In this document: piece after piece, positions 15,869 to 59,582 of the stretch
How the letters are laid out: each line of letters begins with the position of its first letter
How positions within the stretch are numbered: the stretch's first letter is position 1
Source of the DNA: an uncultured Erysipelotrichaceae bacterium
Lineage (GTDB): Bacteria > Bacillota_I > Bacilli_A > RF39 > UBA660
Length of the DNA stretch: 64,000 bases
Assembly (NCBI GenBank): GCA_902793375.1
Contig: CADBDE010000007.1
Span: 1 to 64,000, forward strand
Reading direction: 5' to 3'
Program-made: the position numbers and the translations under genes
Notes under the pieces: generated by a model
Told to the model about the DNA's origin: nothing
What the model saw: the letters and a program-made list of their open reading frames with translations, nothing else
Database searches by the model: none

Positions 15869-16813
15869 TTATTTTTCTACTTTATTTGATGGTACTTCTA
15901 TTGCTGGTCTAAATCCATAACCGAAGTCTAAATCATTTGTAGATGGAGAAATATAAGTTGCACCACTCCAGTATGTTACTACATAAGCTGTATCAACAGT
16001 ACTTGGTGTTTCAAGCCACCAGCCACCATTACCATTTCCTAATGATACACCTGTTCCATCATTATCATCATAATCATTAAGTTCCATTCCAAAGCTTGTA
16101 TTTTCAACAGCAAATGTACAATTTTTTTCTCCACCACATACTGAATTAAATTCTTGATATGTTAATAATCTTGCTGCAAGTCCATTATAACTAAATGCTG
16201 TTGGAAGTGTATGTCCTCCAATTGATGTTTCTCCGTTTGGTCCTTTTATTGCTCTTGTTGTACTTCTCAATCTTACATTACTCCACTTACTAGTTGATGG
16301 TAGTGGTGTACTATAATGTGTATTTGCTGTTGTAATTTTTCCTGTTGCTCCAAGTGGTCCATTATATGTTCTAATATATGTACTATATCCATCAAGGTAT
16401 TCATCATATGACATATTACCAAATAGTGATGGTGTTCCATTATTTCTTACATTACTATAGTAAAGTAATATTGAATAATTTCCGTCACTCTTTATATAAT
16501 AGAATCTTTCATTTTGTGCATTATATACTCCATCTCCATTTACATCACAGTCATATGCGTCTCCTGTGTTATATTCTCCTACTGTTCCTAAAGATCCATA
16601 TGTTGTAGTTACTCCAACTGCTACTGAACATCTACCACTACATGTTTCTGTGTGAAGTGTTGTTGCTCTTCTACATACACAAGTTCCACTACATCCTCCT
16701 GATTCACTTCCAGAACCACTTCCACTTGCTTCTCCACCAGCTTCTGATATATTTCCGCTTATATCATCTAAATGAATTGGTCTCCATTCATTTGTGTCTG
16801 GATTTAACCTTTT
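15869..16813 (-). CDS. C-terminal part of frameshifted pilin
   Basis: An open frame continuing the pilin at 16804-17211 after a one-base shift. It begins RLNPDTNEWRPIHLDD, then has a Gly/Ser linker, a Cys-rich stretch (CSGTCVC, CSGRC), a DVNGDGVY loop, and a C-terminal domain ending WWLETP and DFGYGFRPAIEV. That ending is typical of FGE-sulfatase/DUF6273-like lectin folds. The first internal ATG is at 16414, with no good ribosome site, so it is most likely meant to be the exposed tail of the pilin. Role: surface-displayed binding domain (inferred). Confidence 0.65.
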   Translation of the reverse strand, partial: KRLNPDTNEWRPIHLDDISGNISEAGGEASGSGSGSESGGCSGTCVCRRATTLHTETCSGRCSVAVGVTTTYGSLGTVGEYNTGDAYDCDVNGDGVYNAQNERFYYIKSDGNYSILLYYSNVRNNGTPSLFGNMSYDEYLDGYSTYIRTYNGPLGATGKITTANTHYSTPLPSTSKWSNVRLRSTTRAIKGPNGETSIGGHTLPTAFSYNGLAARLLTYQEFNSVCGGEKNCTFAVENTSFGMELNDYDDNDGTGVSLGNGNGGWWLETPSTVDTAYVVTYWSGATYISPSTNDLDFGYGFRPAIEVPSNKVEK

Positions 16814-17211
16814 ACTCCTTGTCCTGCATCATCTACACTTATCCAATAATAACTATAACCTTTTCCATCATAAATAACTACTACATATGCTTCCACAAAT
16901 TCTCCATATGGACTCTTGCTTGCATTTTCTGTCTTAATATAACTAGCTGGAATATAATATGTTGTATTTGTATCATACATTCCTAATTTTCCCGAATTTC
17001 TAGTCCCTGATACTATTTCTTTTGCTGTATCTACGTAAGCTGATTTTCTTGAATTACTAATATAATTAGTTACAGATGGTATTGCTATAATCATTAAAAT
17101 ACCAAGAATAATAATAACTGCTAATAATTCAATTAATGTAAATCCTTTCTTTTTCTTTTTTTGTTGTTGTTCATCTTCTTCTTTTTCTTCAATTTTTTTC
17201 TTTTCGTTCAT
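16804..17211 (-). CDS. Type IV pilin-like protein, N-terminal part
   Basis: The cytoplasmic leader is rich in Glu, Gln and Lys. The prepilin site KG|FTLIELLAVIIILGILMII follows, with the conserved Glu at +5 and a hydrophobic helix. The globular start (SRKSAYVDTAKEIVSG, SPYGEFVEAYVVV, GYSYYWISVDDAGQG) is almost the same as in the pilin at 58989-59582. The frame stops after GQGVKG, but the next frame continues the protein, so one A appears lost in the A-run at 16810-16813. The start at 17211 has GGAGG six bases upstream. Assembly into a pilus after prepilin peptidase cleavage is expected. Confidence 0.8.
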   Translation of the reverse strand: MNEKKKIEEKEEDEQQQKKKKKGFTLIELLAVIIILGILMIIAIPSVTNYISNSRKSAYVDTAKEIVSGTRNSGKLGMYDTNTTYYIPASYIKTENASKSPYGEFVEAYVVVIYDGKGYSYYWISVDDAGQGVKG

Positions 17212-17239
17212 TTGTATCCTCCCATCTATTATATATATT

Positions 17240-17268
17240 AGTTTATCACAAATTACATTTATTATCAA
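17240..17268 (-). promoter_or_regulatory. Promoter of first pilin gene
   Basis: A -35 box TTGATA (17263-17268), 17-base spacer and -10 box TAAACT (17240-17245) preceded by TGA, an extended -10 arrangement. It lies about 30 bases upstream of the pilin start. Confidence 0.6.
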
Positions 17269-17297
17269 CAATCATAATAGAGCATTTTAACTTTATA

Positions 17298-30161: not shown

Positions 30162-30185
30162 AATATAACAATTATTTGTTATATT
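30162..30185 (-). terminator. Terminator of DUF4186 gene
   Basis: A 10-bp stem (AATATAACAA/TTGTTATATT) with loop TTAT and a run of eight T in the minus direction, overlapping the gene's last codons. Confidence 0.75.
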
Positions 30186-30531
30186 CTTTTTTTATCCATT
30201 CCAGCAGTAAATCTACAATATAATCTACTTCAGTATTAGTTAATTCTCTATCTTTTGGAATATGATGCCATTTTTCAATGCATCCTCTACAACAACAAGC
30301 ACAAGCATGTTGTGCAATAAATACAGGATGAACTTGTTTCATAGGAGTTTGCTTACCATCATTTTTTGGATTCTTTGGTTTAATTCTAGAATTGATAAGA
30401 TTATAGGCATCATTTTTTATTTTATCTAGTCCCTTAATAGATACATAATCAATCATTTTTTTATTTAAATGAAAACTACTTCTAAACTTAGATTTTGACA
30501 ATTTTAAAATAATTAAATCTTTTTTATTCAT
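30172..30531 (-). CDS. DUF4186 domain protein
   Basis: A 119-residue protein matching DUF4186 over its whole length: LSKSKFRSSFHLNKK, NDGKQTP, HPVFIAQHACACCCRGCIEKWHHIP and VDYIVDLLLEWIKKE. The Cys/His cluster (HACACCCRGC, then WHH) looks like a metal site. The family is widespread but has no known function. Here it stands alone between apt and the sortase, with terminators on both sides. Confidence 0.88.
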   Translation of the reverse strand: MNKKDLIILKLSKSKFRSSFHLNKKMIDYVSIKGLDKIKNDAYNLINSRIKPKNPKNDGKQTPMKQVHPVFIAQHACACCCRGCIEKWHHIPKDRELTNTEVDYIVDLLLEWIKKEYNK

Positions 30532-30545
30532 AAATACCTCAAAAA

Positions 30546-30562
30546 AAGGACATAAAGTCCTT
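30546..30562 (-). terminator. Terminator of sortase gene
   Basis: A 6-bp stem (AAGGAC/GTCCTT) with a 5-base loop and seven T in the minus direction, at the end of the sortase gene. Confidence 0.65.
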
Positions 30563-31553
30563 ATATTTTTACTGCAGTTACAATATAAAATGCATTATCC
30601 CAGTGATGTGAACATGTTTGAAGTACTATTATTTCACTATTTTCGTTATATGGAATACTTCTTGAATTAAATACTCCCTCACCAGTAGTAATAGCTTGTA
30701 CATGATTTACAAAATCTTGTCCTACTTTATTAACAGCCATATGTTCATTATTCTCTTGACGAACTTCTTTGATTGATAAAATTCTATAAAAATTTTTTCC
30801 ACCATCATGTTGAAAAACAACATATTCATTATCATCAAAGAATTGTTTATCTAAGAATTTCTCTAATTTCATAAATGATACTTTAATATTGATATCTCTT
30901 GTATTATGTCCATAAAGATTAACTTGTTTTGATGTTGGTGTAACACGATAATCTATGAATTCAGTTCCACGAATATCATACTCTTTAGTTACTGAATGAG
31001 ATAAATAGAAACTATTATCTGTTCCTTTTGTTACTAATACATTAAATAGCTCAGGAATTTCTAATCTTCCAATAATATCGTTATTGTGATAGTATTGTCT
31101 TTCATGTTCCAAATTTACATCAGGAGCAAGTTTTAGAATTCTTTGCCCAACTTGTGCATCTTGTAATTCATTACTATCTACTTTAATTTCAGATGGTAAT
31201 GATTCATATATTTCAGGTTCTTTTTGTCTATCTTGATAATCAATATAATAAACTATTCCTGAAGCAATAATAAGTAGAATAAAGAATATATATAAGAAAA
31301 TCTTTTTTGCATTTTTCTTTTTCTTTTTCTTAATATTATTTTTTCCATTATTTGGATTCATTCCATTATTATTAGGATAATAATTGTTTTGATTATTGTT
31401 CATATTGTTTTGATTATTGTTCATATTATTATTAAAACTATTTTCTCTTATGTTAAAAGAAGTTTGACATTGTAAGCATGTTATAACATCAGAATCTGGG
31501 CTAACTTTTAAATTAGCTCCACAGTTTTTACATTTAATATCAATTAAATCCAT
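30561..31553 (-). CDS. Sortase-family protein with N-terminal zinc ribbon
   Basis: A 330-residue protein. Residues 8-29 hold CKNC and CLQC, a cytoplasmic zinc ribbon. An Asn-rich linker (residues 40-72), a Lys stretch and one membrane span (about 84-105) follow, then a class B-like sortase domain with His216 (LYGHNTRD) and Cys314 (LQTCSHHW). At the place of the catalytic Arg (class B: TCS..FDDARF) this protein has Phe322 (DNAFYIV). Sortases join LPXTG-type proteins to the wall. With Arg missing, activity is uncertain. No LPXTG target is obvious in the window. Confidence 0.82.
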   Translation of the reverse strand: MDLIDIKCKNCGANLKVSPDSDVITCLQCQTSFNIRENSFNNNMNNNQNNMNNNQNNYYPNNNGMNPNNGKNNIKKKKKKNAKKIFLYIFFILLIIASGIVYYIDYQDRQKEPEIYESLPSEIKVDSNELQDAQVGQRILKLAPDVNLEHERQYYHNNDIIGRLEIPELFNVLVTKGTDNSFYLSHSVTKEYDIRGTEFIDYRVTPTSKQVNLYGHNTRDINIKVSFMKLEKFLDKQFFDDNEYVVFQHDGGKNFYRILSIKEVRQENNEHMAVNKVGQDFVNHVQAITTGEGVFNSRSIPYNENSEIIVLQTCSHHWDNAFYIVTAVKI

Positions 31554-31665: not shown

Positions 31666-34494
31666 TTAAAAGAATTGTGGATTTGAATCAGTTTCTTCAG
31701 ATTTATTTGATTCTTCAGATTGTTCAGCATTTTCATCTTCAGGTTTTACTTCTTCGATAACGTGAACATCATCTTCATCCTCGTCTTCTTCATCTTCCTC
31801 ATCTTTATCTCTATCACCAATTAATCCAGTTAATCCAAGTCCTGCAGCTCCTGCAGCAAGTCCTGCTAAAGCTCCTAATCCTGTAGCACTTTGTTTAGTA
31901 TCACCAGTTCCATAGATAGCATCTAATCCTGTATGAGGAGAGTAAGGTCCTCCACCAGGTCCTATAGGTTCTCCACCAGGTCCTGTATAAATAATAGATG
32001 TCCAAGGTACTGTAAAGACAGGTATCTCAGGAATAGTTTCAGGTGGTGCTATTGTTCCTGGTGTTGTTGTTGCTGGTGTTGTTGTTGCTGGTGTTGTTGT
32101 TGCTGGTGTTGTTGTTGCTGGCGTTGTTGTTGCTGGCGTTGTTGTTGCTGGCGTTGTTGTTGCTGGCGTTGTTGTTGCTGGCGTTGTTGTTGCTGGAGGT
32201 GGTGTTGGTTGTGGTTTAGGGCCAGGTGGTGTTGGTTCAGGGTCTTCTGGTGTTTCTTCCTCTTTTGGTGGTAACGTATCTGGATAGTCCTCATAGAATT
32301 TATCAAATTGTCTAACATATTTTATTGGTACAATTTCTCTTTGATCCCATATACTAATTTCACTACCAACTTGTTTTCCTTCTTTTGTGAAACATGCAAT
32401 TTTAATTGTTCCAGATAATGGATCAAATTCACCAGTAACAGCATATACATATCCATGAGCATCATCAAACGCAATGACATCTCCAGGTTTGTAATCGCTG
32501 AGGTTGGTTATTACCGGCATCCGATTGTAATCCTGGAAGTCTTTGACAATATCATCATGTGATGATAATACTGTATTCAAATCAAAGTTACCATCAGCTC
32601 CATGAATCTTATTATAGTATTCATTTCCAGGTGTAAAGTAATCTTTGAATGAACTTGTAGTTGTTTCTAAGTTCTTTAAGTCATAATAGTACTCAAGAAC
32701 ATCTAACAATAACTCTTCACGTTCAGCTTCTAACTTAGCCATTTCTTGTTCAGCAGCTGTTTTTTCCTCTTGTAATTTTGTCAATTCTTCTTGTTTTGTT
32801 GTTAATGAAGATTGCATTTGATTTAATGCGTTTTTCCATGCTTCATATTTAGGGTTAGGATCACTTGCATGTTGTTTTCCATCTGGCTTTCCATCTGTAT
32901 ATTTTGTATGTTGACATGGAATTGTTGGTTCTTGTTTATTTTGATTATGCAATTTAATTTCTTTTTGAAGTTGTTGTATTTCTTCTTCTTTTTTTGTTAT
33001 TTCTTCATTTATTTGCTTTAAGTTTCTTTCAACAAATTGTCCAGAGAATCCATCAGCATCAGCAGGAGCTTCACCGCTAAGAGCAAATACAGCTTCTTCT
33101 TTAGCCTTTAATTCTTGTAATTTAGAAAATAATTCTTTAGACTTTGTACAAGCCTCACTAAGCCCTTTTGTAATATTACCAAGGGTTACTTCAAATTTTC
33201 CATTAATACATTGTAAAGTTGCTAAATCTTCTTTACTAGCTGATCCAGACCACTCATTAATTTGATCATGGAATTTTTTAAACTCATTAGTTAAATTTTC
33301 TATATCTGATTGATATTTTTTTTCTTCTGCTTCCCAATCTTTTGCTCCTAAATCTTTTATTAAATCTTTAAATAATGAATTATTGTAGAATACACTACTA
33401 TTTTTATCATTACCTGTAGTTTTACCACTAAAGTCTCTTATACCTGCTTGACTTAGAGCTTCTACAGTTTTTCTTAAATCTTTAACTGAATATTGTCCAG
33501 AAGATGCATAGGCAGCAATGAATTCTGCTTTACTAAATGCTTCTCCATCTTTAGAAGCTACATAATTACCTAAAACATTCTTGTTTATATTCTTTGTTAA
33601 TATTCCTCTAAATTGAGGATTTGTAGACAAGTTAATTTGTTGTCCTGGTAAGTATGCATGTTCATCATCTCTATCAGGAGATCCAGATGGTTGAGTAACA
33701 TGTGTATGCCACATAATACCTTCGCCTTCTTTAACAACTTGTCCATCTAATGGTCTTTCAAAATCTTCTAATGCAACATCATGAATATCTTCACGATTTC
33801 TAGCACCTAATCCATGAAGTCTAGCAGTTGATTCTGGTTTATCAGATAAAGTAGCATATTCATCTGCCTTAGTACGGTAAGCGTTTTGATCTTTAACTTT
33901 AATAGAATTTTTATCGTAATCAGTTACTTCTTTTCCATCTAAATCATTGATCTTGTATCCGCCTTTACCATCCCATTCAAGATTTCCAACTTTTGTATTT
34001 CCATCTTTATCTTTATAGTATATTTCGTAAGTATCTCCTTCAGCTTTATATTTTAATTTATCTAATTCAACACTTTTAGCATTTGAATAATCAGACTCAG
34101 TTGGTTTTTCTTCAAATGTTTTTCCATTAGCAGCTACTGCTTTTTTATATTCATCAGTATATGTTCTAGCTTGTGTATCATAATCTACTTTTTTAGCATT
34201 TTCTTCTACTGCAGCCATAGCTTCTTCTTTTGAGGCATTTGGATGAAGTTTTTGATAAGCATCTACTGCTTTATCTTTAGATTCTTGTATTTGTGCTTCT
34301 TGAGTTTTTGGCGCATCCCCTTTTGGTGTTTCTTGAGCTGCACTAGAATTTTTATCAGCAGGAGGTCCTTGAACACCTAATTTTTGTAATTCTTCTTTAC
34401 TATATACTTTTCCACTATTGTCTTGGAATCCACCATCTTCAGTTGGAGTACCTTCAACTTCAACACCATTAATTTTTAATTTGATTTTTTCCAT
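31666..34494 (-). CDS. Large surface or secreted protein of a WXG100 operon
   Basis: A 942-residue hydrophilic protein without a Sec signal peptide. The N-terminal 150 residues are Lys/Glu/Ala-rich. A middle domain has GIMWHTHVTQPSGSPDRDD (about 259-277). Two coiled coils lie at about 485-515 and 560-610. A beta-rich region (KPGDVIAFDDAHGYVYAV) follows, then Pro/Thr repeats (nine ATTTP units, about 767-812), a Gly/Ala hydrophobic segment (about 869-893) and an extreme acidic tail. It follows two WXG100 genes, so it is probably their co-secreted effector or surface component. The ribosome site is GGAGGTG. No family is recognised for the whole. Confidence 0.75.
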   Translation of the reverse strand: MEKIKLKINGVEVEGTPTEDGGFQDNSGKVYSKEELQKLGVQGPPADKNSSAAQETPKGDAPKTQEAQIQESKDKAVDAYQKLHPNASKEEAMAAVEENAKKVDYDTQARTYTDEYKKAVAANGKTFEEKPTESDYSNAKSVELDKLKYKAEGDTYEIYYKDKDGNTKVGNLEWDGKGGYKINDLDGKEVTDYDKNSIKVKDQNAYRTKADEYATLSDKPESTARLHGLGARNREDIHDVALEDFERPLDGQVVKEGEGIMWHTHVTQPSGSPDRDDEHAYLPGQQINLSTNPQFRGILTKNINKNVLGNYVASKDGEAFSKAEFIAAYASSGQYSVKDLRKTVEALSQAGIRDFSGKTTGNDKNSSVFYNNSLFKDLIKDLGAKDWEAEEKKYQSDIENLTNEFKKFHDQINEWSGSASKEDLATLQCINGKFEVTLGNITKGLSEACTKSKELFSKLQELKAKEEAVFALSGEAPADADGFSGQFVERNLKQINEEITKKEEEIQQLQKEIKLHNQNKQEPTIPCQHTKYTDGKPDGKQHASDPNPKYEAWKNALNQMQSSLTTKQEELTKLQEEKTAAEQEMAKLEAEREELLLDVLEYYYDLKNLETTTSSFKDYFTPGNEYYNKIHGADGNFDLNTVLSSHDDIVKDFQDYNRMPVITNLSDYKPGDVIAFDDAHGYVYAVTGEFDPLSGTIKIACFTKEGKQVGSEISIWDQREIVPIKYVRQFDKFYEDYPDTLPPKEEETPEDPEPTPPGPKPQPTPPPATTTPATTTPATTTPATTTPATTTPATTTPATTTPATTTPATTTPGTIAPPETIPEIPVFTVPWTSIIYTGPGGEPIGPGGGPYSPHTGLDAIYGTGDTKQSATGLGALAGLAAGAAGLGLTGLIGDRDKDEEDEEDEDEDDVHVIEEVKPEDENAEQSEESNKSEETDSNPQFF
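32060..32194. repeat. Nine 15-bp tandem repeats
   Basis: Nine exact-length units of GGYGTTGTTGTTGCT (plus strand) encode ATTTP in the minus-strand protein. The first four units have GGT and the last five GGC, so copies have spread in two blocks. Copy number is likely to vary by slippage without changing frame. Confidence 0.95.
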
Positions 34495-34504
34495 ATTGCA
34501 CCTC

Positions 34505-34837
34505 CTAACTGTTAACGTCTAAGCTTCTAGCCATAGCATCAATATTCTTTCCTTGTTCAGATATTAACAATGTATAATCTTCTAATGTTTTCTTTAAGAA
34601 CTTAATGTATATATCTAACGAATAATCTATTTGTTCATAATTTGAATTTAATAAAGTATATTTATTATAAACTGCTGCAGCTGTTTTACCAGTCCAAACT
34701 TTTGTTTGATTTATTCTTTCTACATTTTTCTTTTCTTTAGCCATAATATCTTTAATTCTATTATAAGACTCTTCTAATGAAGTTATTACTGATTGAAATT
34801 CTTCTGGTGAAGTAATTGTTATTCCACTATTCTTCAT
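34505..34837 (-). CDS. WXG100-like protein
   Basis: A protein of about 110 residues, almost all helix, with Trp-x-Gly (KVWTGKTAAAVYNKY) at the middle turn, as in ESAT-6-like WXG100 proteins exported as helical hairpins by type VII secretion. The start at 34837 has GGAGG nine bases upstream; the gene overlaps the previous gene's end by 11 bases. No Y-x3-D/E export signal is clear. Probable partner: the adjacent WXG100 protein or the large protein downstream. Confidence 0.75.
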   Translation of the reverse strand: MKNSGITITSPEEFQSVITSLEESYNRIKDIMAKEKKNVERINQTKVWTGKTAAAVYNKYTLLNSNYEQIDYSLDIYIKFLKKTLEDYTLLISEQGKNIDAMARSLDVNS

Positions 34838-35135
34838 AATTATTCGCCTCCACATTCAACTGTTTAGCAAATCCAGTATCTATATCAGCGAATCCTCGAT
34901 TTGCCTTATCGCAAAAGCTTTTTATATTTCCCATTGAAGTAGTAAGTTTTTTCATATTCTCTATATAATCGTGTGCTTTATCACAAAAGATTTTTGCATC
35001 TTGTCCTTGCCAAACTCCTCTAAGAATTTCAATTTGTCCAAGCATTTTTTCTATTTCTTTATCATAATCTTCTTGGTCTTTCTTTATTACATTAGTGAAA
35101 TCATATAATTCGTCATGTCCAACTTTAATTAACAT
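34827..35135 (-). CDS. WXG100-like protein
   Basis: A 102-residue helical protein with the central WQG turn (IEILRGVWQGQDAKIFCDKAHDYIENMKKL), the standard length and layout of WXG100 family members. The two flanking helices are amphipathic. It is coupled to the next WXG100 gene by an overlap. A secretion ATPase (EssC type) is not in the window, so the machinery must be elsewhere if this is exported. Confidence 0.78.
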   Translation of the reverse strand: MLIKVGHDELYDFTNVIKKDQEDYDKEIEKMLGQIEILRGVWQGQDAKIFCDKAHDYIENMKKLTTSMGNIKSFCDKANRGFADIDTGFAKQLNVEANNYEE

Positions 35136-35145
35136 ATCTTATCAC

Positions 35146-36018
35146 CTACATTCTTTCAGATGAATCTTTGTCATCATCTTTTGATGAAACATATTTTACA
35201 TCAATTTTATTACTGTCTGAAGTTTTCTTATCTTCTACTGCAGCGGCTATTGCATCATCATCAAAATTGCTTGTTGCTGTTTGATTTCCAATAACGTTTC
35301 CTAATATTGACTTACCAATTATTGTTGAATCATCATATTTTTGCTCAGTTGTTTGATTATTTCCCATATTATTAAGATTACTTTTTGAAACAACTGATGA
35401 ATCATCATAAGATTTTTCTTGAGTTTGATTTCCAGTAATACTCTTAAGTCTAGTATTACCAACAGATGTAGCATCATCATAAGTCTGTGCTTCTGTTTGA
35501 TTTCCACTAATATTTCCAAGAATTGATCTTCCAATAATTGTCGTATCATCATAAGTTTGAGCTTTTGTTTGATCTCCATGAATATCAGTTAATGCTTGTG
35601 CAGCAACTGTTGTTTCATCAATATCATTAGCTTTCTTAGTTTGATGTCCTTCATTAACACTTGTACCATCAACTTTGGAAACATATATAGCATTATATTT
35701 ATTTGTATCCATTGGATTTCCCGCTGTATAATCAACTGCTATATCAATTCCTTCAGCTGCAGAAGCCATTTCACTATCATAATTGTTAAACAGTTCTGCA
35801 CCTACTTTTAATTTCTCTGAATAATTTCTCATTGATTCTGAAATTGCACTCATTTGCTTTGATATTTTTTTAGTAGTATCACCAGCAACTTTATCCATTT
35901 CAGCAAATCTGCTTAAAACATCGCTACTAGCATCAGAAGCTTTTCCAACAATAGAACTATAGCCTCCAGCTGCACCTAATATAGATTCAGTATCAATAGA
36001 AATATCGCTTTTACTCAT
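35146..36018 (-). CDS. Helical protein with 24-residue repeats in WXG100 operon
   Basis: A 290-residue protein. Residues 1-95 are helical and Ser/Ala-rich with a WXG/LXG-like feel (no Trp). Residues 127-270 contain five clear and one decayed 24-residue repeats of the pattern T-x4-[YF]-DD-x-[TS]-x-[IV]-x3-S-x-L-x2-[IM]-x-G-[ND]-Q. The C-terminus is highly charged. It is the first gene of the operon, behind an AAGGTGAT ribosome site and a promoter. I know no named family for the repeat. Likely an exported or machinery-linked component. Confidence 0.65.
   Translation of the reverse strand: MSKSDISIDTESILGAAGGYSSIVGKASDASSDVLSRFAEMDKVAGDTTKKISKQMSAISESMRNYSEKLKVGAELFNNYDSEMASAAEGIDIAVDYTAGNPMDTNKYNAIYVSKVDGTSVNEGHQTKKANDIDETTVAAQALTDIHGDQTKAQTYDDTTIIGRSILGNISGNQTEAQTYDDATSVGNTRLKSITGNQTQEKSYDDSSVVSKSNLNNMGNNQTTEQKYDDSTIIGKSILGNVIGNQTATSNFDDDAIAAAVEDKKTSDSNKIDVKYVSSKDDDKDSSERM
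35209..35640 (-). repeat. Six 72-bp protein-coding repeats
   Basis: Repeats of 24 codons within the protein at 35146-36018, starting at residues 127, 151, 175, 199, 223 and 247. The ends are conserved as GNQT and the fronts as YDD; the last unit is degenerate. Confidence 0.85.
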
Positions 36019-58867: not shown

Positions 58868-58995
58868 CTAATATCTGAGAATACCTCTTGTAAGTGTTCT
58901 TTTTCTGCATCATAATTATTTGATTTAAAACAATGCTCAGTTCCATTTCTTTTTATACAAACTGCCAAACTGTTATCTGAATATAATCCTAATTT
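58723..58995 (-). CDS. C-terminal part of split pilin with variable tail
   Basis: An open frame that continues the pilin at 58989-59582 after a one-base shift: KLGLYSDNSLAVCIKRNGTEHCFKSNN without its last residues reads on directly from NDGT. The AEKEHLQEVFSDI helix is followed by a Cys/Gly/Tyr-rich tail (SCGVDSYGVYCYASDFGC, DVNSNGDVSC, GTYEYCYVDGVGAVGCL). The tail is the candidate DGR-diversified, surface-exposed end. A TTG at 58968 could start it alone, but no ribosome site is visible, so it is probably meant to be fused. Two stop codons (TAG TAG) end it. Confidence 0.6.
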   Translation of the reverse strand, partial: KLGLYSDNSLAVCIKRNGTEHCFKSNNYDAEKEHLQEVFSDISCGVDSYGVYCYASDFGCDVNSNGDVSCDGRGTYEYCYVDGVGAVGCL

Positions 58996-59582
58996 GTTCC
59001 ATCATTTATGTAATTTGTTGGATTATTACTTCCACCTTCTTCTCCTGTTTCAGAATTTACATTTATTAAGCCTTGATCATCAAATCCTGCTTTTTTACAA
59101 CTATGTCCTTCATCTATTATTATTACTTTTCCTCTTCCATCTATTGTTCTTTTTGTATTTATGTCATCGCTTGTTAAATCACTTTCTATTGAATCAGTAT
59201 CTAGTTTATTGTACGACACTATTTTTTTTACTCCTTGTCCTGCATCATCTACACTTGTCCAAAAATATGAGTATCCTTTACCATCATATGTTACTACTAC
59301 GTAAGCATTAGTAAAATCTCCATATGGACTTTTCATTGCATTTTCTGTCTTGATACAATTTACATCTATATAGTATGTTGCATCTGTATCATACATCTCT
59401 AACTTTCCAGCATTAACTAAGTTTCTAGCTGACCCAATTATCTCTTTTGCTGTATCGACATATGCATTTTTTCTTGAATCACTTATATATTTTGTTACAC
59501 TTGGTATTGCTATTATCATAAGAATTCCTAGAATTATGATAACTGCTAATAACTCTATTAAAGTAAATCCATTTTTGTTCAT
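58989..59582 (-). CDS. Type IV pilin-like protein, N-terminal part
   Basis: A 197-residue frame. The leader MNKNG precedes FTLIELLAVIIILGILMII with Glu at +5, the prepilin cleavage and assembly helix. The globular part (SRKNAYVDTAKEIIGSARNL, VNAGKLEMYDTDATYYIDV, SPYGDFTNAYVVVTYDGKG, VDDAGQGVKKI) is close to the pilin at 16804-17211. The frame ends NDGTN, but the next frame goes on without a gap, pointing to loss of one A in the A3 run at 58993-58995. AGGTGAT precedes the start. Expected to form a surface pilus after processing. Confidence 0.82.
   Translation of the reverse strand: MNKNGFTLIELLAVIIILGILMIIAIPSVTKYISDSRKNAYVDTAKEIIGSARNLVNAGKLEMYDTDATYYIDVNCIKTENAMKSPYGDFTNAYVVVTYDGKGYSYFWTSVDDAGQGVKKIVSYNKLDTDSIESDLTSDDINTKRTIDGRGKVIIIDEGHSCKKAGFDDQGLINVNSETGEEGGSNNPTNYINDGTN

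Follow-up and report, generated by a model that had tools for sequence, protein, structure and literature searches.

The window analyzed here, a stretch of 64,000 nucleotides from a bacterial genome of 1.59 Mb, encodes what appears to be a membrane-anchored, class-B-like sortase that has lost the catalytic Arg and kept the Cys, the His, and the Thr that precedes the Cys. What could such a protein do, and to which substrate? We propose that the Arg-less sortase has most likely kept its cysteine transpeptidase activity, and that its main substrate is likely BIG, a large protein encoded just upstream. BIG would leave the cell through the type VII secretion system together with WXG100 partners, be retained via its weakly hydrophobic C-terminal segment, be cleaved between the Thr and Gly of its SPHTG motif, and then be joined to peptidoglycan. 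On balance, and with somewhat better than even confidence, we thus favor an Arg-less class-B-like sortase that is active and anchors a surface protein exported by type VII secretion.

The sortase gene is an ORF at window positions 30561-31553 on the minus strand (as are all features of the sortase, BIG, and their cassette located below) and encodes 330 aa. The protein begins with a zinc-ribbon-like motif at residues 8-29 (CKNC...CLQC; 31467-31532), with cysteines at C8-x-x-C11 and C26-x-x-C29; the motif is modeled at a pLDDT of ~90, and Pfam Zn_ribbon_4 matches it below cut-off. It is followed by an Asn-rich, low-confidence linker at residues ~40-75 (31329-31436; pLDDT <50 at 42-77), its Asn-rich stretch spanning ~40-72, then by six Lys and a predicted membrane helix at residues 81-109 (31227-31313). 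Since the ribbon and the linker both precede the lysine run and the membrane helix, they should be cytoplasmic, with the catalytic domain outside. The Shine-Dalgarno-like sequence AGAGGTG lies 5 bases ahead of the ATG, and the N-terminal ribbon is therefore probably translated. The original prediction had read a CxxC..CxxC ribbon and an Asn-rich linker ahead of the membrane helix, and we confirm both. Its further proposal of a coupling to a cytoplasmic signal fared poorly. A sortase regulated by, or signaling to, the cytoplasm through the zinc ribbon would agree with a ribbon that is in frame, confidently modeled, and preceded by an ATG after a Shine-Dalgarno-like sequence, but the ribbon is found in two of the 11 orthologues from the genus (the window sortase and L004), while the nine others begin just ahead of the membrane helix, and a pattern search of 137 sortase rows returned the same two matches. 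Given its presence in two of 11 orthologues, the ribbon seems accessory, and we hold a signaling role through it to be very improbable.

Two observations concern the surroundings of this gene. A stand-alone 92-aa protein of the same genome (L251, G000:C18, 2633-2911) has a hydrophobic C-terminus and a ribbon resembling that of the window sortase, whose fused ribbon may derive from it. Directly after the sortase lies a DUF4186 gene (window 30172-30531; PF13811, 156.5 bits), a homologue of which occupies the same place in five of the ten other genus loci.

Orthologue and clade alignments place the catalytic His216 in a YGH sequence (30906-30908) and the catalytic Cys314 in LQTC (30612-30614). 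At Cys+8, the site of the catalytic Arg, they place Phe322 (30588-30590), just as the original prediction had stated. The accessible part of PMC5118464 gives the same +8 spacing for Cys209 and Arg217 of C. difficile SrtB. Orthologues were found in 11 of the 12 genus genomes searched, including the genome of the window, and the ten others are 47-61% identical to the window sortase. Among these 11 sequences 59 columns are invariant, those of His216 and Cys314 included, and residue 322 is Phe, Tyr, or Leu, never Arg. A sequencing artefact or a pseudogene was rejected, as the loss of Arg is common to all 11 orthologues.

Is this protein a class B sortase? AlphaFold2 was run on alignment A1, which has 46 rows and leaves out five more distant sortases of 51. 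The model has a mean pLDDT of 87.6, with values of ~90 or more across nearly all of the sortase domain. Among the matches listed by VIA-align for this predicted model, the first 16 are class B sortases (Z 19.8-23.7 over 167-199 aligned residues), and other sortases start at Z 12.8 and go down; C. difficile SrtB (5GYJ, 4UX7) and C. perfringens SrtB (5B23, 5YFK) match the predicted fold at Z 20.2-23.7, and the same two proteins are the closest solved sequences by score. As modeled, the sortase domain has a class B type fold. It also shares with class B sortases the Cys and His and the helix before beta-7, along with an SPxTG-type motif in its probable substrate, as known for C. difficile from partly accessible sources. 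The sequence profiles are less accommodating. PF04203 gives 19.6 bits for the window sortase, below its cut-off of 26.6, and matches six of the 11 genus orthologues at an E-value of 0.01 or better; TIGR03064, the class B sortase profile, gives 64.4 bits, below its cut-off of 153.75, and an Arg-bearing paralogue from the same genome (L002) scores 168.3 bits with it. Of the His-Cys-Arg triad that characterizes class B, the His and Cys are present and the Arg is absent in all 11 orthologues. The TLxTC signature reads VLQTC in the window sortase, with the Thr kept at -1 and Val replacing Thr at -4. In contrast to C. difficile and C. perfringens SrtB, the window sortase lacks an Arg at the Arg217 site, reads LQTC in place of TLSTC, has His284 in place of Tyr, and scores below the class B cut-off.

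How widespread is the loss? Sortases were collected through GTDB family, order, and phylum searches and from further chosen regions, part of the matches of the broad searches being taken (the loci returned plus 40 hand-chosen regions). Of 137 distinct rows, one (L118), with a match that stops short of the Cys, was left out; the resulting 136-row sample is biased, its rows having been found with the window sortase or alignment A1. The presence of Arg was scored by a distance rule, with L189, L176, L205, L208, and L060 set by eye. In a tree of the 136 rows, built by a quick method with SH-aLRT as its sole support and a midpoint root, the Arg-less rows form one group of 71 (SH-aLRT 97), comprising 69 rows with neither Arg nor Lys and two with Lys; outside it are 62 rows with Arg and three with Lys. 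The GTDB family of the window genome contributes all 71 Arg-less rows and 24 others (L090 and L091 being counted with this family), and none of the 41 rows from other families of the class is Arg-less. This confinement counts against the reading that we favor. Counted by alignment column, although the distance rule places some rows otherwise, the Arg site of the 71 rows holds Tyr in 44, Phe in 18, Leu in five, Lys in two, and Asn in two. Within the sample, these comparisons support a loss of Arg that is fixed and lineage-wide. The Cys is kept in 71/71 of these rows, the His in 70/71, and the Thr at -1 in 67/71. The retention of sortases in the order RF39 is implied in the accessible part of PMC10868615.

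Individual rows depart from these patterns. In L071 (G076:C7), which belongs to the Arg-less clade, Asn replaces the catalytic His and ETC replaces QTC; this sortase may truly be dead. L056, L180, L052, and L183 lack the Thr that precedes the Cys and read LQAC, LQAC, LQIC, and LQVC, respectively; the accessible part of PMC9520033 reports a proposed role of this Thr in the oxyanion hole. Outside the clade, L163 and L167 have Ser at Cys-2, and their Arg site is occupied by Lys.

What changed along with the Arg? A column-by-column comparison of the 71 Arg-less rows with the 65 other rows shows strong differences at five positions near the active site. Arg at position 322 gives way to Tyr or Phe and Thr at position 310 to Ile or Val. 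At position 312 (Cys-2), Gln is found in 70/71 Arg-less rows, and Ser in 46/65 of the others; at position 284, His is found in 67/71, and Tyr, Phe, or Trp in 55/64 of the others; Arg occupies position 203 in 70/71 rows versus 29/64. Strong differences are also seen at positions 226, 210, and 163, and position 209, basic in 62/71 versus 15/65 rows, is a further candidate substitute for the Arg. In the window sortase, three of these residues are Gln312 (30618-30620), His284 (30702-30704), and Arg203 (30945-30947). The original prediction had suggested an alignment with class B and D sortases. HMMER alignment to C. difficile SrtB pairs residues 203, 271, 312, 314, and 322 with Arg102, Tyr167, Ser207, Cys209, and Arg217, so that Phe322 falls on Arg217. 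According to the accessible part of PMC5118464, Tyr101-Arg102 and Ser163-Tyr167 of C. difficile SrtB contact the P4 residue in simulations, and Arg203, as the equivalent of Arg102, therefore probably lines the groove.

Could another Arg have moved into the site? Arg298, Arg219, Arg195, and Arg163 are kept in 10 or 11 of the 11 genus orthologues, yet they are scarce in the Arg-less clade (13/70, 17/71, 12/71, and 17/71, respectively), and a simple relocation to one of these positions is unlikely. Arg203 is no plain substitute either, since C. difficile SrtB has Arg102 at this position and still keeps Arg217. A few clade members (L014, L053, L066, L145, and L177) have an Arg adjacent to the catalytic Arg site. 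A strict swap of Arg for Gln at Cys-2 was likewise discarded: seven rows of another family have both Arg and Gln, and one has Lys and Gln, so Gln at Cys-2 alone does not imply loss of the Arg. Instead, we infer that Gln312, His284, and Arg203 may jointly compensate for the missing Arg217 equivalent. The loss would probably be tolerated because the groove has been rebuilt, with Ser replaced by Gln at Cys-2, Tyr or Phe by His at 284, and Arg203 nearly fixed.

Can a sortase work without its Arg? The published record, as far as the accessible parts of the papers go, points both ways. PMC9520033 reports that R216A kills S. pyogenes SrtA and that the Arg makes contact with the carbonyls of P4 and P3 and not with the oxyanion; it assigns the Arg mainly to positioning of the substrate and asks for further work. 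PMC13257024 (2026) describes a class A sortase that is inactive as R200A and active as H128A, and states that all sortases have a His-Cys-Arg triad in which the Arg is indispensable. As the H128A protein stays active, the kept His of the Arg-less clade tells less about catalysis than the kept Cys. PMC9520033 also cites an engineered S. aureus sortase A, selective for LMVGG, in which the Arg has become Ser and transpeptidation is still efficient. Together with the Arg contacts described in the same source, this evolved enzyme makes activity despite loss of the Arg plausible. The engineered sortase A is a laboratory-evolved class A enzyme, whereas in the lineage of the window sortase the loss is natural and, so far as sampled, fixed.

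The competing idea is a pseudosortase that would bind the sorting motif without catalysis and serve as a membrane receptor or scaffold for type VII cargo. The inactive Arg mutants of the two class A sortases above agree with it, as do the clade member that lacks the His as well (L071) and the four that have lost Thr(-1). But retention of the Cys in 71/71 and the His in 70/71 rows over a deep clade, and the place of both among the invariant columns of the orthologues, would be needless in a protein that merely binds. We consider such a pseudosortase unlikely, and more generally a dead or scaffolding sortase the less likely case; the Arg-less sortase is likely to be catalytically competent. The original prediction had called the protein non-catalytic or altered. 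The second term stands, in that the Arg is lost across the lineage, and the first is disfavored by the kept Cys, His, and Thr and by the co-occurrence of the sortase with BIG in 11 of the 12 genus genomes.

What is the substrate? The sortase closes a conserved cassette. Its first gene encodes an ESX-like protein, which we call ESX0 (35146-36018); no Pfam family matches it above cut-off, and the designation ESX-like is our own reading. It is followed by a WXG100 protein (34827-35135; PF06013, 31.2 bits with a cut-off of 27.3), a WXG100-like protein (34505-34855; PF06013 at E 5.9e-4, below cut-off) that is conserved in all nine loci with a full flank, and BIG, a probable substrate of 942 aa (31666-34494). 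The order ESX0-WXG100-WXG100-like-BIG-sortase holds in 9/9 genus loci with a full flank. In the remaining two BIG still precedes the sortase, at a contig end, and in L037 and L038 an extra 341-aa gene lies between them. The BIG profile matches 11 of the 12 genus genomes; the sole genome in which neither BIG nor a sortase orthologue was detected is G006, which is 94% complete. EssC is above cut-off in all 12 genus genomes, in five of six comparison genomes whose Arg-less sortase is unlinked to type VII, and in the genomes of both L090 and L091. EssC is thus no specific marker of an Arg-less sortase with a type VII link. DUF4176 is present in the EssC locus of the window genome as well.

Several features of BIG resemble type VII cargo. 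In a simple hydropathy test the maximal 15-residue hydropathy stays below 1 within the first 45 residues of all 11 BIG sequences, in agreement with the lack of a Sec signal peptide, although two of the 11 are truncated by contig ends and so lack their true start. A WxG motif (W415-S-G417; 33244-33252), with W and G invariant in 9/9 aligned sequences, lies at the turn of a helical hairpin: in a model of residues 340-740, which consists of helical hairpins and a small beta domain, W415 and G417 sit at the turn between two long helices, as in WXG100 proteins. Fold searches with part of BIG returned generic coiled-coil matches alone, none of them informative. Like WXG100/LXG type VIIb cassettes, the cassette sets small WXG100 proteins beside a large protein without a hydrophobic N-terminus, in a genome with EssC; unlike them, it includes a dedicated sortase, and its cargo has a C-terminal sorting signal. 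From these sequence features, type VII export of BIG appears probable, about as much so as catalysis by the sortase.

The C-terminus of BIG consists of a Pro/Thr-rich stalk, the sorting motif, a gap, a stretch rich in Gly and Ala that is weakly hydrophobic, and an acidic tail. Wall-anchored proteins usually have such a stalk immediately ahead of the motif, and the tail of a sorting signal is usually basic. The motif of the window protein is SPHTGL at residues 852-857 (31924-31941), and the Gly/Ala-rich segment ahead of the acidic tail (GALAGLAAGAAGLGLTGLI) lies at 31819-31875. Ten of the 11 BIG sequences have xP[HDNS]TG[LI], and one has PIHTGL. According to the accessible part of PMC4371152, C. 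difficile SrtB cleaves SPKTG. Between motif and helix BIG has 12-18 residues (7 in L009), the hydropathy is 1.4-1.8, and the net charge of the tail is -1 to -21; the other proteins listed besides L092 have gaps of 0-10 and tail charges between +1 and +5 (-1 in one case), in a comparison set that includes some FtsW-like proteins, which are no substrates. Judging from its sequence, the acidic tail is the main oddity of BIG as a substrate.

This oddity bears on a further alternative, in which the motif is cleaved and the cargo is hydrolytically released or moved to an unusual acceptor instead of being anchored to peptidoglycan. Such an altered outcome would suit the acidic tail and weak helix of BIG, as well as a groove rebuilt at positions 203, 284, 310, 312, and 322 relative to Arg-bearing relatives. 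Yet BIG keeps the stalk of wall-anchored proteins, and several other Arg-less sortases adjoin proteins with ordinary sorting signals. We judge this outcome improbable, slightly more so than the pseudosortase, and prefer anchoring of BIG to the wall. BIG may also not be the only cargo. Two stretches of the same genome, L243 (G000:C20, 536-3122) and L244 (G000:C1, 2059-3385), contain WXG100-type genes and a protein with a BIG-like C-terminus, in which APHTGL or ESKTGL is accompanied by a weak helix and an acidic tail. No sortase was found in the fetched stretches of L243 and L244, which suggests that one sortase may serve several cargoes.

Is the link with type VII secretion confined to this genus? 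Within the Arg-less clade the sortases of L052, L056, L180, and L183 form one group (SH-aLRT 97). The sortases of this second type VII association adjoin proteins of ~95-116 aa or DUF4176 proteins. L180 and L183 have a DUF4176 or WXG100-sized neighbor, DUF4176 is above cut-off in L096 and L217, and WXG100 matches the 116-aa protein of L218 below cut-off; neither the small L092 proteins that were tested nor the three helical proteins of L096 have a Pfam match above cut-off. L092, L096, and L217 also encode a protein whose C-terminus combines PxTGI with a hydrophobic stretch and a charged tail; it is truncated by the contig end in L096 and possibly in L217. L064 was rejected as type VII-linked: it adjoins a PPKTG protein, and its short contig is devoid of WXG-type genes. 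L090 and L091, the closest relatives of the genus group, do not belong to a type VII-like cassette. L090 adjoins a PPKTG protein whose N-terminus is hydrophobic from either candidate start, a first one that gives an ORF overlapping the sortase gene or a later Met. As L090 and L091 lie outside such cassettes, two recruitments into type VII cassettes, or one with losses, are suggested.

Across 36 wider Arg-less loci, a script found a sorting-signal protein at most two genes away in 14, or 13 after L108 was rejected by eye; L092 and L096 are type VII-like among these 13, and the rest are ordinary. The script found no sorting-signal neighbor in 22 of the 36 loci (23 with L108 rejected), its thresholds having missed some neighbors, such as those of L116 and L217. 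As a background, the 37 scanned loci have 359 ORFs of 150 aa or more, and 26 of these pass the same test, the matches included. By these script counts a good part, although not all, of the Arg-less sortases have an obvious local substrate.

Does this arrangement have precedents? In S. suis WapA/SrtB, too, a class B sortase adjoins one large surface protein and is reported to be needed for its delivery; the WapA cargo is exported by Sec, in contrast to the type VII route proposed for BIG (PMC12704120, accessible part). Among the matches listed in the open literature, outside of which most subscription papers lie, we found neither a natural Arg-less sortase lineage nor a sortase dedicated to type VII cargo. 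The window also holds two mutually alike ORFs with type IV pilin-like N-termini (GFTLIELLAVIIILGILMIIAIPSV) at 16804-17271 and 58989-59582 on the minus strand.

Taken to its full extent, our proposal is that a natural lineage catalyzes without the Arg through a groove rebuilt with Gln at Cys-2, His284, and Arg203, and has been recruited at two places of the tree into type VII cassettes, where it would anchor exported proteins with acidic-tailed signals and so provide a route from type VII secretion to the cell wall. We put this combined proposal forward tentatively, at a little short of an even chance. The role of the Arg becomes directly testable in a natural lineage that lacks it and has what appear to be dedicated substrates. 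If the proposal is true, a type VII-dedicated sortase would join two surface-display systems that are usually treated as separate.
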